A stretch of 64,000 nucleotides of DNA from Thermoplasmatales archaeon. Lineage in GTDB: Archaea; Thermoplasmatota; Thermoplasmata; Thermoplasmatales; Thermoplasmataceae. Shown in pieces: positions 3,199 through 14,084 of the stretch; within the stretch, counting starts at the first letter, position 1, and each line of letters opens with the position of its first letter. A program made the position numbers and the translations under genes. Location: the NCBI GenBank assembly GCA_016806715.1, contig CP060531.1:1163966-1227965 (forward strand). The letters run 5' to 3'. Under the pieces are notes generated by a model. It ran no database searches and was not told the DNA's origin. It worked only from the letters and a program-made list of their open reading frames with translations.

Positions 3199-3319
3199 GT
3201 TCCTTAACAGGTATTTCATAAATTCCCGTAAGTTCACGATCCAGTCGCAATGAAGCTCCGACCTTCAGGGTGGAGAGGAATTGCGACACTCTTTTATATT
3301 GAATTTATATATCAATATT

Positions 3320-4426
3320 GTGCTCAAGACCCTTCAGATCAAGCTCCTTCCCGATGATAACCAGAAAGAGGCTCTTCTCAATACATTCGGACAATTTAAC
3401 GCCGCATGTAATTTTGTCTCTAAAATAGCGTGGAACCAGAAAATATTCAACAAGGTACTCCTGCAGAAAATAGTATATCATGACATAAGGGATAAATTTG
3501 GGCTGGCATCCCAGCTTGCGATCAGGGTCATTGCAAAGGTCGTGGAGACCTACAAAGCTGATAAGGCAACATTCCATGAATTCCGTGAATACGGGAGCAT
3601 CGTATATGACCAGAGGATACTGAGCTTCAAGGGCATGGATGAGGTCAGCATCAACACGGTTCAAGGCAGGATAAGAATACACATAACCATTGGGAAATAC
3701 GGTGAGATACCGTTCAGGAGGATGAGGGGGCAGTGTGACCTTGTGCGGAAAAATAAGCTTTTCTATTTAATGGTCGCTGTCGATGTCCCGGAGGAACCGC
3801 AAATAGAACCGAAAGACATTATGGGCGTTGATCTGGGGAGGGCGAACATCGCCGTTGATTCCACCGGCAAATACTATTCCGGCGATAAAATAGAAAAAGT
3901 CAGGAATAGATACTCTGCCCTCAGGGCCGACCTCTAGTCTGCAGACACCAGATCGGCGCAAAGGCATCTCAAGAAGCTCTCCGGAAAGGAGAGCAGGTTC
4001 ATGAAGGATGAAAACCATGTAATTTCCAAGGACATCGTGCAGAAAGCCAAAGGCACCTCTTCTGCCGTAGCCATTGAAAATCTCAAAGGCATCAGGGAGA
4101 GGACAACCGTTAGAAAGAGAGAGCGATACCAGCATAACTCCTGGGCTTTCCACCAGCTCAGGTCGTTCATTGAATATAAGGCTAGGATAGTTGGCGTTCC
4201 TGTAATCCCCATAAATCCAGAAAATACCAGCAGGGAATGCCCGTCCTGCCACACCATTGACAGGAGGAACACGCCAGAACGACCTAAATTCAAATGCATA
4301 TCCTGTGGTCTTGGGGGAGAAGCCGATTTCATTGCTTCCCTCAACATCAGGAACAGGGCTGCAGTCAATCAGCCCATCGTAGCGGGTGAGGCTAAGAATG
4401 CCCAGCTCCAAGCTCCGAAGCTTTAG
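3320..4426 (+). pseudogene. tnpB: TnpB (IS200/IS605-type RNA-guided nuclease), amber-interrupted
   Basis: TnpB reading frame of about 368 codons, broken only by an in-frame TAG at 3935-3937; the same frame continues directly as SADTRSAQRHLKKLSGKESR. A single C-to-T change in CAG (Gln) explains it. Catalytic features survive on both sides: RuvC-I aspartate in IMGVDLGRANIAVD before the stop; RuvC-II glutamate in SAVAIENLKGI, a four-cysteine zinc ribbon (CPSCHTID ... KFKCISCG) and RuvC-III aspartate in GEADFIASLNI after it. I start at GTG 3320 (LKTLQIKLLPDD), the usual family N-terminus. No tnpA is nearby, so this is a solitary, IS1341-like element. The nonsense codon removes RuvC-II/III, so it is probably inactive unless TAG is read through. 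Confidence 0.9.
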
Positions 4427-4433
4427 CGAGGAG
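4412..4433 (+). ncRNA. Right-end hairpin / guide-RNA scaffold tail of the tnpB element
   Basis: The last codons and stop of tnpB lie in a compact hairpin: CTCC pairs with GGAG around an inner GC-TTTA-GC. In this family the 3' end of the element, overlapping the tnpB 3' end, encodes the scaffold of the omega (re) RNA, and the sequence just outside is the guide. The same 22 bases recur at 13449-13470 without an intact gene, which supports this being the conserved element end. The next bases (TAGTTGACAG onward) would be guide sequence. Confidence 0.6.
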
Positions 4434-4478
4434 TAGTTGACAGATTAATCGAGATTGGCAGATGGCAATGGTTTGAGC

Positions 4479-11054: not shown

Positions 11055-12319
11055 GGATCTCTTGAACTCTTTGGGGGTAAGTAATATACCCTCATTCATT
11101 TACATTTCATGAATTCTGAGGAACTGTTCAGGAGACTTCTAGGTTTAGAGGAGCCGTGGATCATTAAGGAAATAAAGTTCGATCACCAGGAAAAGAGGGT
11201 GGATATCTTCATAGATTTTCCGAAGGGATCTAGATTCCCATGCCCTGTCTGTGGAATACCATATGGAGTACACGACACTGAGGAACGCACATGGAGGCAC
11301 CTGAACGTATTCCAGTATCCCACATACGTGCATGCAAGGGAACCCAGAATAAAATGTGATCAGCATGGAAAGAAGACCGCTGATCTGCCATGGGCAAGAA
11401 AGGGATCGGGATTCTCGCTGCACTTTGAAGCAATGGTTGTGGAGATGGGCAAAGAGATGCCGGTATCTTCAGTTGCAAGGATTGTGGGAATCAATGAGGA
11501 TTCTGTCTGGAGAATCCTGAAACATTATGTGGATGAGGCCAGGAAAGATCAGGATCTCTCTGGCATATCAGTGCTGGGAATAGACGAATTCTCCGTGGAG
11601 AAGCATCATGTCTATGTTACTCTCTTTTACGACATAAAGAACAGCAGGGTCATACACATCGAGGAGGGAAAGGATTCCGATGTTTTCATGAAGTTCATGC
11701 AGAAGAATCCATTCCTTGATGTCAGGAACATAGAGCACATCACAATGGACATGTGCCCGCCATACATATCCGGCGCTAAACGGTATTTTCCGGATTCATC
11801 AATTGTCTTCGATCACTTCCACGTCATAAAGATGATGAATGATGCACTTGACAGGATCAGGCGTAAGGAGTCAAGGGAGAATGAAATCCTCAAACACACA
11901 AGATATGACTGGCTGAAGAATTTCAGTGATCTCTTACAAAAGGAGAGAGATCGCCTCATGTCCGTGAAATCCCTTGATCTGCAGACATCGCATGCATATC
12001 ATTTCAAGATCGCCCTGCAGAGATTATGGCAGGTCAATGCAGGCATTGCTGAATCATACCTGAGGAAATGGATATCATGGGCATCCCGATCAAGGATGCC
12101 GGATATCATCAAGCTTGGAAAGACCATAAATCGGCATCTTGCTGGCATAATGGAAGCCATACGATCCGGAATAAATTCCGCTGTTGTTGAGGGACTGAAC
12201 AACAAGATCCGGACAGCATTCAAGCGTTCTTATGGGTTCAAGGCCCATGAGTACAGGGACACGATCATCTATCTGGTGGCAGGAGGTCTGAAATTACCCC
12301 CACAATGTTGAAGAGATCC
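11055..12319 (+). mobile_element. Intact ISL3-type insertion sequence (1265 bp)
   Basis: Terminal inverted repeats begin GGATCTCTT at the left (11055) and, read inward on the other strand, GGATCTCTTCAACATTGTGG at the right end (12319); they match over about 26 of 28 positions, ending in GGGGGTAA. An 8-bp direct repeat AAATATTT flanks both sides (11047-11054 and 12320-12327), the size typical of ISL3-family insertion. It holds one transposase. The duplicated target is itself palindromic and AT-only. Inserted in the lead gene of ABC locus 1. Confidence 0.93.
11109..12311 (+). CDS. ISL3-family transposase
   Basis: 400 aa, full length for the family. An N-terminal zinc-binding domain (CPVCGIPYGVHD ... 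CDQHGKK, about residues 40-85) is followed by a helix-turn-helix (MPVSSVARIVGINEDSVWRI) and the DDE catalytic core: aspartate in VLGIDEFSVEKHHVY (about 160), aspartate in ITMDMCPPY (about 212), FDHFHVIKMMNDALD, and the late glutamate in AVVEGLNNKIRTAFKRSYGF (about 365). No internal stop or frameshift, so it may be active. Confidence 0.93.
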   Translation: MNSEELFRRLLGLEEPWIIKEIKFDHQEKRVDIFIDFPKGSRFPCPVCGIPYGVHDTEERTWRHLNVFQYPTYVHAREPRIKCDQHGKKTADLPWARKGSGFSLHFEAMVVEMGKEMPVSSVARIVGINEDSVWRILKHYVDEARKDQDLSGISVLGIDEFSVEKHHVYVTLFYDIKNSRVIHIEEGKDSDVFMKFMQKNPFLDVRNIEHITMDMCPPYISGAKRYFPDSSIVFDHFHVIKMMNDALDRIRRKESRENEILKHTRYDWLKNFSDLLQKERDRLMSVKSLDLQTSHAYHFKIALQRLWQVNAGIAESYLRKWISWASRSRMPDIIKLGKTINRHLAGIMEAIRSGINSAVVEGLNNKIRTAFKRSYGFKAHEYRDTIIYLVAGGLKLPPQC

Positions 12320-13018: not shown

Positions 13019-13430
13019 TCACAGAATGACATATTTCATCCTATTTTTTCTTACCTGTTTTCTTATTTTTCTATAGCTTACGCTGCCTTGCCCTGCTTCT
13101 TCATGGTAAGCAGGGTCATGAGAGTCTATCCAAGGTACATGAACGTCACCTTTACCTTTACCCGCCTGATCATTGTTACAAACACAAGTGCACCATAAAA
13201 TATCCCCCTTTATGACAGAATACGGCCTCTCGCCGGGAGAAAGTTTCCTTGTTATCCTGCGGTTTCCCATAATCTCGTACACTGTGAGCTTATTCTTCCT
13301 TGATACCCTGTCCCTGTAAGCTGGAATGCCGGTATGCTTGGAGCGACTTTAGAATCATGGAGGGATGCCGTGGTGAAAACAAAATTCCATTCGAATGGCC
13401 TCTCCGTTTTCGGAAGGGGTTGCCATGCCA
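13019..13430 (-). pseudogene. IS5-like transposase, C-terminal remnant
   Basis: Minus-strand translation gives FVFTTASLHDSKVAP, then in other frames KLTVYEIMGNRRITRK, ERPYSVIKRG and RVKVKVTFMYLG, with stops and frameshifts between. The order (TTASLHDSK, then RPYSVIKR, then a VKVTFMYLG-type end) is that of DDE transposases of the IS5/IS4 superfamily C-terminal half. The 5' half is missing; upstream the sequence passes into the tnpB-type right end at 13449-13470. Family assignment is tentative, but decay is clear. Confidence 0.6.
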
Positions 13431-13448
13431 ACAGATCTGGAGGTGCAT

Positions 13449-13470
13449 GCTCCGAAGCTTTAGCGAGGAG
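13449..13470 (+). repeat. Solitary tnpB-element right end
   Basis: Twenty-two bases, with core GAAGCTTTAGCGAGGAG, identical to the right end of the tnpB element at 4412-4433. The preceding codons read HAPKL then TAG, matching QAPKL-TAG at the tnpB C-terminus. The rest of the gene is absent or unrecognisable. It marks a lost IS200/IS605-type copy; the bases that follow (CAATTGGCAT onward) would have been its guide. Confidence 0.65.
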
Positions 13471-13727
13471 CAATTGGCATCAAAAGGCATGGCATAGCAT
13501 GGCTGAACACGATCAATGGAAATGTTAACGCATTCACTGGAAAGATTTCGGCAAGAACGCTTAAGAACGAACTTCATGTGATGTTTCCGACCCTTCTTGG
13601 TAAATCAGAAAAATAAATAGGATTTAGTTCTGCCATTTTCATATATGTGGAATAATAAAAAAGATTAGAACATAAGAAAAAATCTAGTGGAATTTTGACG
13701 ACATCTATCGCAGCTATAGTTGACCGT

Positions 13728-13739
13728 TAATAATAAATT
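13728..13739 (+). promoter_or_regulatory. TATA-like box of the RNase P RNA gene
   Basis: TTAATAATAAAT centred about 24 nt before the inferred 5' end of the RNA, the spacing expected for archaeal TBP/TFB promoters. Confidence 0.6.
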
Positions 13740-13756
13740 CAGGTGTTCAATTCTTT

Positions 13757-14084
13757 GATGAACAAAAGCCCGAGGGCAACTTACGCTCGAAAGAGTGAGG
13801 AAAGTCCCCCCTCCTCGACAGGTTCCAATCAACTCAAGTTGATATCCCGAGAGGGATGGTAAAGAGAAAAGAAATTCACGGTTTCATGTTAAGAATGACT
13901 CGAAAAGACGACGTTTCATGAAGAGCCGATGGGAACTCTCCCTGGATGGAGCAAGTCTAAAGAGACCCTATGAGACTGTCGTGAGGGTCAGGTAAGACGC
14001 ATGTCCCAATGGGACAAAAGTCGAATGTTGCCAACCGTAAAAGCGGCCAACAGAAGGGGGCTTATTCCGGGCATTTGTTCAATT
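13757..14084 (+). ncRNA. rnpB: RNase P RNA
   Basis: About 328 nt. The universally conserved blocks are present: GAGGAAAGTCCCCC near 13796 (CR-I region) and ACAGAAGGGGGCTTA near 14050 (CR-V region). The ends pair as helix P1: TGAACAAA near 13759 with TTTGTTCA near 14074, continued by GCCCG with CGGGC. This is the catalytic RNA of the ribonucleoprotein that cuts 5' leaders from pre-tRNA. Neighbours on both sides are transposon remnants, yet the core motifs are intact. End positions are set by the P1 helix and may be off by a few bases. Confidence 0.93.

Follow-up and report, generated by a model that had tools for sequence, protein, structure and literature searches.

The isolated right end at 13449-13470 is very probably part of the decayed 3′ portion (about 13360-13478) of a gene-less, PATE-like mini-element related to IS200/IS605 transposons, rather than what is left of a tnpB copy. 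This orphan is most likely an ordinary relic, probably dead, of a class already described; PATEs of Haloquadratum include core-deleted, terminal-only ones, according to the accessible portion of PMC3119063. It lies in a window of 64,000 nucleotides (the whole stretch of DNA analysed) from a Thermoplasmatales archaeon whose genome is a single contig of 1,959,588 bases.

A pattern scan of the window found the 22-mer GCTCCGAAGCTTTAGCGAGGAG exactly at both 4412-4433 and 13449-13470, the identity from which the initial annotation had started, and nowhere else at three or fewer mismatches (shuffled sequences, mean 0.00). That annotation had held that a lack of further copies of the motif would speak against it; further copies exist, and the genome holds 13 at three or fewer mismatches, four of them exact. 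It had also described the hairpin and the QAPKL/HAPKL-stop codons as kept without a gene. This was borne out: QAPKL-stop and HAPKL-stop, the latter at 13446-13463 in the orphan, are legible straight from the sequence, and tblastn with three TnpB proteins found no tnpB match in the 3-kb orphan locus. The same search recovered tnpB in four other loci (L001, L003, L004 and L123) and missed a weak relic (L006). The orphan and its surroundings contain the following features.

13046..13316, no strand assigned: piece of a different repeated element bordering the relic, with longer matches in G004, G013, G016, G039 and at 2 other places in this genome
13360..13376, plus strand: probable remnant of the core motif GAGGGATTCGGTGGTGA, with 2 mismatches; sole match in 64 kb at three or fewer mismatches
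13402..13448, plus strand: remnant of a mini-element guide scaffold, 5′ of the end hairpin; 84% identity to L010 and L102/L116
13449..13470, plus strand: right-end hairpin (the 22-mer), exact match to 4412-4433; 13 genome copies at three or fewer mismatches
13471..13478, plus strand: altered terminal 8-mer of the right end, reading CAATTGGC and 3 transitions from TAGTTGAC
13479..13494, plus strand: expected place of a 16-nt guide were the element intact; genomic targets not above control

Two traits of IS200/IS605-type ends can be read here. The subterminal hairpin common to tnpB elements is present in the orphan in 22 of 22 bases; the conserved terminal TRGYTGAC beside the flank is not, its place at 13471-13478 being taken by CAATTGGC. 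The likeness to the gene-less element L010 exceeds the 22-mer and spans 13402-13470 (69 bp at 84%), and that to L116 spans 13402-13463 (62 bp at 84%, L102/L116, another genus). The ends of tnpB elements match the orphan only from 13446 (L001) and 13441 (L003) onward. When 13397-13478 was aligned globally, identity to gene-less elements was 83% (L010), 83% (L121), 82% (L116), 80% (L120) and 75% (L113), with lower values for L118 (73%) and L135 (71%); identity to the window’s own tnpB end was 73%, with large gaps. The L156 row was left out of this comparison. Percent identity over the whole stretch thus cannot by itself tell a gene-less from a tnpB ancestry, and the case for a mini-element depends on the extent of the match. 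Two loci from other genera (L129 and L139) retain just the orphan’s segment, also without tnpB by tblastn, and thus such remnants recur.

The core motif is a more ambiguous witness. At three or fewer mismatches, GAGGGATTCGGTGGTGA is expected 0.15 times in the window, and one or more matches turned up in 13 of 100 shuffles. The local alignment score of the core region was reached by 2 of 300 shuffles against L118 and 3 of 300 against L121, and by 49 of 300 against L010 and 267 of 300 against L116. The match speaks for the mini-element reading, with the reservations that the pattern was picked post hoc, after the alignment had been seen, and that the likeness to L010 and L116 is weak.

The history implied by the initial annotation, which called the feature an orphan tnpB right end, is a tnpB copy whose gene was deleted so that only its right end was left. 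We consider this quite unlikely. The feature is indeed an IS200/IS605-type end without a nuclease gene, its 22-mer is identical to the tnpB ends of L001, L003 and L004, and core deletions are known for IS605-type elements (accessible portion of PMC3119063). However, upstream of the 22-mer the match goes to gene-less elements, none of the five loci read that carry the 13402-13448 segment (L010, L102/L116, L113, L129 and L139) matches tnpB, and a mini-element core motif lies at 13360-13376. The decayed mini-element therefore remains our preferred account of the orphan. Its ancestor would have been mobilised in trans by a single-strand transposase, and would later have been truncated beside another repeat and have drifted since. 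A crude motif filter applied to short ORFs beside eight other tnpB loci found no Y1-type transposase.

The other copies show how much of the right end the orphan has lost. Most of these have about 8 further conserved bases after the 22-mer before variable flank begins. The usual endings are TAGTTGAC, TAGCTGAC, TTGTTGAC or TGGTTGAC; departing ones are TAGTTTCC (L004), TAGCAGAC (L044), TATCTGAT (L050) and TAGCTGGC (L058), and a second lineage of right ends has endings such as AGTATGTCAG. The arms of the end hairpin covary among relatives. In the alignment, the final six bases of first-kind ends can pair with GTCAAC or GTCAGC, with a span of 78-97 bases from strand to end. Of the 25 other right ends, taken as extracted, 20 form all six pairs; among the five that do not, two were rows at a wrong offset (L060 and L074). 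Shuffling the strands among the 13 distinct strand pairs gave no significance (972 of 5000 shuffles reached the observed value); in alignment A5, 96.4% of the cells of this helix are paired, and one pair changes from A-U in 11 sequences to G-C in 3. By analogy, the putative pseudoknot agrees with that of ISDra2, in which positions -5 to -3 pair with -105 to -103 (accessible portion of PMC10097598).

Aligned with these relatives, the orphan lacks the pseudoknot strand GTCAACC, the ATTGTG of the outer stem and most of the core; its final 8 bases read CAATTGGC as against TRGYTGAC, and no left end was found. The guide-side pseudoknot of TnpB omegaRNAs is thus missing, the GTCAAC strand being gone. 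We scored the orphan with a covariance model (R1) built from 25 right ends, the orphan being outside the training set. It obtained 30.1 bits (E 4.7e-4), whereas seven other copies reached 57-94 bits. The trained copies scored 69-94 bits, and two of the seven strong copies were also untrained (86.3 and 57.3 bits). Five further matches gave 15.6-17.8 bits, four of the five being hairpins of the second TnpB lineage; since these TnpB ends also score low, a low R1 score is no proof of decay. Other points count against decay as well: the 22-mer of the orphan is perfect, its CAATTGGC is no more than 3 transitions away from TAGTTGAC, and L004, an exact 22-mer copy, likewise departs in its 8-mer (TAGTTTCC) yet reaches 86 bits.

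The initial annotation had gone further, proposing that the scaffold could be served by a TnpB made elsewhere and that the guide begins at 13471. As a functional stand-alone guide scaffold, the orphan would be transcribed, bound by TnpB in trans and guided by its flank. Its end hairpin is intact, R1 still detects it (E 4.7e-4), and open tnpB copies exist in the genome, so that a nuclease could be provided in trans. What fails is the scaffold itself, which is truncated and altered: the GTCAAC strand is gone, the outer stem is broken, the guide-side 8-mer is changed, and its R1 score falls far under those of the seven strong copies. About 81 nt are left, as against the 116-nt ISDra2 scaffold with its pseudoknot (accessible portion of PMC10097598). 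Because the conserved end takes in another 8 or so bases after the 22-mer, to 13478, a guide of the orphan would start at 13479, and the register from 13471 began 8 bases too early. The suggested genome search for a guide target beside an adjacent motif gave no site at two or fewer mismatches in either register, and no TAM-flanked target or donor joint was found in the orphan’s own genome. With 18-nt patterns, the locus itself set aside, the two registers gave 2 and 3 sites at three mismatches, and reversed-pattern controls gave 2 and 3. These five sites are thus at control level, and none of them follows TCAC, the presumed adjacent motif. When viral contigs were scanned with a 16-mer, the raw count of exact matches was 35, and a search of viral contigs for relatives of the open TnpB found none. 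We therefore regard a working stand-alone scaffold at this locus as very unlikely, and the orphan would no longer yield a working guide RNA. The intact relatives L010, L005 and L152 suit the notion of a nuclease-free scaffold much better than the orphan does.

That the host has co-opted the hairpin, perhaps as a terminator or as a processing site ahead of the RNase P RNA gene, is extremely unlikely: the hairpin does lie 293 bases upstream of that gene (13764-14076; archaeal RNase P RNA, RF00373, 171.9 bits) on the same strand, but the interval between the two matches only 2 of 41 genomes, G002 of the same genus (40 bp, 13723-13762) and G050 (31 bp, 13654-13684), and the hairpin was not seen beside either match.

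For the repeat that borders the relic at 13046-13316, the longer matches, found in several genera and twice in this genome, are 67-71% identical, and Pfam gives no match; by eye, it resembles a transposase C-terminus on the minus strand. An apparently intact ISL3-family transposase of 400 aa occupies 11109-12311. A 47-aa frame just 3′ of the orphan has no Pfam match and only weak matches in 3 other genomes among 61 (E 0.018-0.039, 32-41% over 27-37 residues). These matches were set aside as chance on the strength of two of them: the one in L096 lies opposite a 341-aa ORF, and that in L097 falls within a 404-aa frame antisense to a 446-aa ORF. In a Parvarchaeota MAG (KMA_Bin10, L040), two right-end-like hairpins occur about 1 kb apart; the contig comes from the same bin series as several Thermoplasmata matches, and transfer or misbinning may account for it.

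The elements to which we assign the orphan, here called type 1, are best seen in L010 and L116. These are gene-less, 324 and 325 bp long, and consist of a left end that starts from TCACGATCC and has a hairpin, a core and a right end; both ends are visible in L010, L116 and L118. The core is carried by ten fetched type-1 loci from 6 genomes and 5 genera, several of them with internal deletions. No tnpB was found in these ten by tblastn, and both ends are visible in 8 of them; the exceptions are L117, with no recognisable right end, and L135, which begins at a contig edge. With the L116 element as query, matches were obtained in 19 of the 77 family genomes, in a survey that scored only part of the candidates per genome and in which many matches were mere ends of other elements. 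No empty site for L116 was found among 10 genomes of its genus (g10); its flanks match in 8 of these 10, 7 of them not its source, and the matches in these seven start at least 47 bases beyond the element. The predicted type-1 fold is wanting in covariation support (8 of the 72 pairs and a covariation term of +1.04, from 5 sequences). Rfam, queried at E up to 0.5, returned no match for the mini-elements or for their extra RNA domain, the sole match in nine loci being RNase P.

The tnpB elements have ends of the same family. Those in the window are as follows.

3234..3297, plus strand: tnpB left end, of an end family in common with the mini-elements; 64-bp match between L001 and L010, G000:1167199-1167251
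3317..4426, plus strand: tnpB of the window, with one in-frame TAG at 3935-3937; PF07282 match in its second part
4412..4441, plus strand: right end of this tnpB element, made up of the 22-mer and TAGTTGAC; flank from 4442, R1 73.7 bits for 4364-4441

Apart from that single in-frame TAG, the window’s tnpB is full length. A paralogue (L003) in an open frame of 372 codons, with 92% identity to it over 205 residues, maps near 1250802-1251915 on the minus strand. The genome has 17 PF07282 matches, 13 of them in open frames of at least 350 codons; a partial match below the cut-off marks L006, missed by tblastn, as a probable tnpB relic. In three genomes (G012, G028 and G074), matches to the left and right ends of mini-elements are separated by about 1.2 kb; the interval in G074 encodes a TnpB with 72% identity over 361 residues (L123). 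Gene-bearing and gene-less elements thus have ends in common. Several left ends, of type-1 as well as tnpB elements, start with TCAC. At about 1100-1535 in L008 and L009 we observed short elements of the second lineage with the endings AGTATGCCAA and AGTATGTCAG, which match the last 23-32 residues of that lineage’s TnpB only. As these keep just the C-terminal bit, both TnpB lineages here have gene-less companions.

A second, related type of mini-element (type 2) is represented in this genome by L005 and L152. Type-2 matches occur in at least 29 of the 117 genomes of the order, when the best five or fewer candidates per genome were scored; by our reading of the table, at least 17 genomes have core matches of more than 130 bp, at least 6 have short core pieces and at least 6 have the scaffold only. 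We compared 18 loci by BLAST and aligned the 14 that reach the right end (13 genomes, 9 genera, 3 families), with L005 replacing its duplicate L185 and with L168, L170, L174 and L182 omitted as incomplete. The predicted RNA is about 290 nt long and ends in a TnpB-type guide scaffold. RNAalifold placed 71 pairs, 19 of them with compensatory changes; pairing holds in 95.6% of cells, both sides are changed in 49 cells, and 0 of 500 shuffles reach either value. When the partner strand was slid, 1-9 compensated pairs and 33-48% pairing were left. One of five measures, the number of further pair types, was reached by 21 of 500 shuffles. Relatedness inflates the covariation counts, and the structure was derived from the same sequences. 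Even so, four compensated pairs fall in an internal helix (89-99/142-152) that is part of neither transposon end.

The longest open frame in type-2 elements plus up to 170 bases upstream is 149 codons from stop to stop. Across 34 loci, tblastn with three TnpB proteins returned only short C-terminal pieces (L008, L009, and L161 as a neighbour). Over 70 bases, the scaffold of L152 shares 96% identity with the end at L006, also in this genome; farther upstream the two do not match, which suggests that scaffolds may have been exchanged between elements. Left ends of type 2 are apparently of two kinds, with TCAC fittingly placed in 3 of 14. The right flanks of L162 and L166, from different species, are similar and may represent one site adjacent to a putative tRNA gene.

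Judged from their sequences, the intact relatives L010, L005 and L152 are plausible candidates for trans-acting guide RNAs. The RNA of an intact mini-element would end in a TnpB-type scaffold, and its 3′ neighbour would be host flank. A TnpB made elsewhere could then cut the empty donor site by means of this RNA, which would favour retention of the mini-element. We tentatively propose, at somewhat short of an even chance, that gene-less transposon families of this order carry as their cargo a single RNA of about 290 nt, composed of the scaffold and a conserved additional 5′ domain, and enlist TnpB in trans, with the orphan as a dead member. Each family would use host flank as guide, and TnpB supplied elsewhere would cut the empty donor site.

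What is new over known PATE remnants is the conserved RNA core of the intact relatives together with a TnpB-type scaffold. The intact relatives are candidate guide RNAs that would spread without a nuclease, and the use of TnpB in trans by non-autonomous IS605 elements for their persistence would become directly testable. The orphan itself cautions against taking isolated right ends for guide RNAs.

A literature search found nothing joining Thermoplasmatales and TnpB. Among the matches listed, judged by title and the start of the abstract and with subscription literature thinly covered, none concerned gene-less guide elements (TnpB with MITEs, PATEs, or stand-alone or non-autonomous elements). 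Stand-alone omegaRNA loci were reportedly described for IscB by Altae-Tran et al. in 2021, and Meers et al. are said to have discussed IS605 PATEs in 2023.

The comparison with known systems that follows refers to the accessible portions of the sources cited. Like the omegaRNA (reRNA) of ISDra2 TnpB, the relatives of the orphan are predicted to have a right-end scaffold, a guide taken from the right flank and a pseudoknot in which the bases next to the guide pair with a strand some 100 nt upstream (PMC8612924, PMC10097598). In ISDra2, however, the RNA overlaps tnpB in cis, whereas the mini-elements are gene-less and the orphan has lost its pseudoknot strand. The circular omegaRNAs of archaeal IS200/IS605 elements offer a parallel in archaeal omegaRNA expression; six terms for gene-less or trans-acting elements are all absent from the text of PMC12558985. 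The PATE-like element of Halanaerobium hydrogeniformans is similarly gene-less, with a left-end hairpin, the final 58 nt of tnpB and a complete right end (PMC7290912). It differs in being a single copy with the look of a deletion derivative, and a separate conserved core is unmentioned in the accessible text of that source. PATEs are likewise short, without a transposase gene, have near-terminal palindromes in common with IS605-type elements, and include terminal-only remnants (PMC3119063). They are defined there by their palindromes, a conserved RNA core being unmentioned in the accessible portion. In contrast, the relatives of the orphan within the order Thermoplasmatales add to this plan a conserved core, supported by covariation in type 2, and a guide scaffold.
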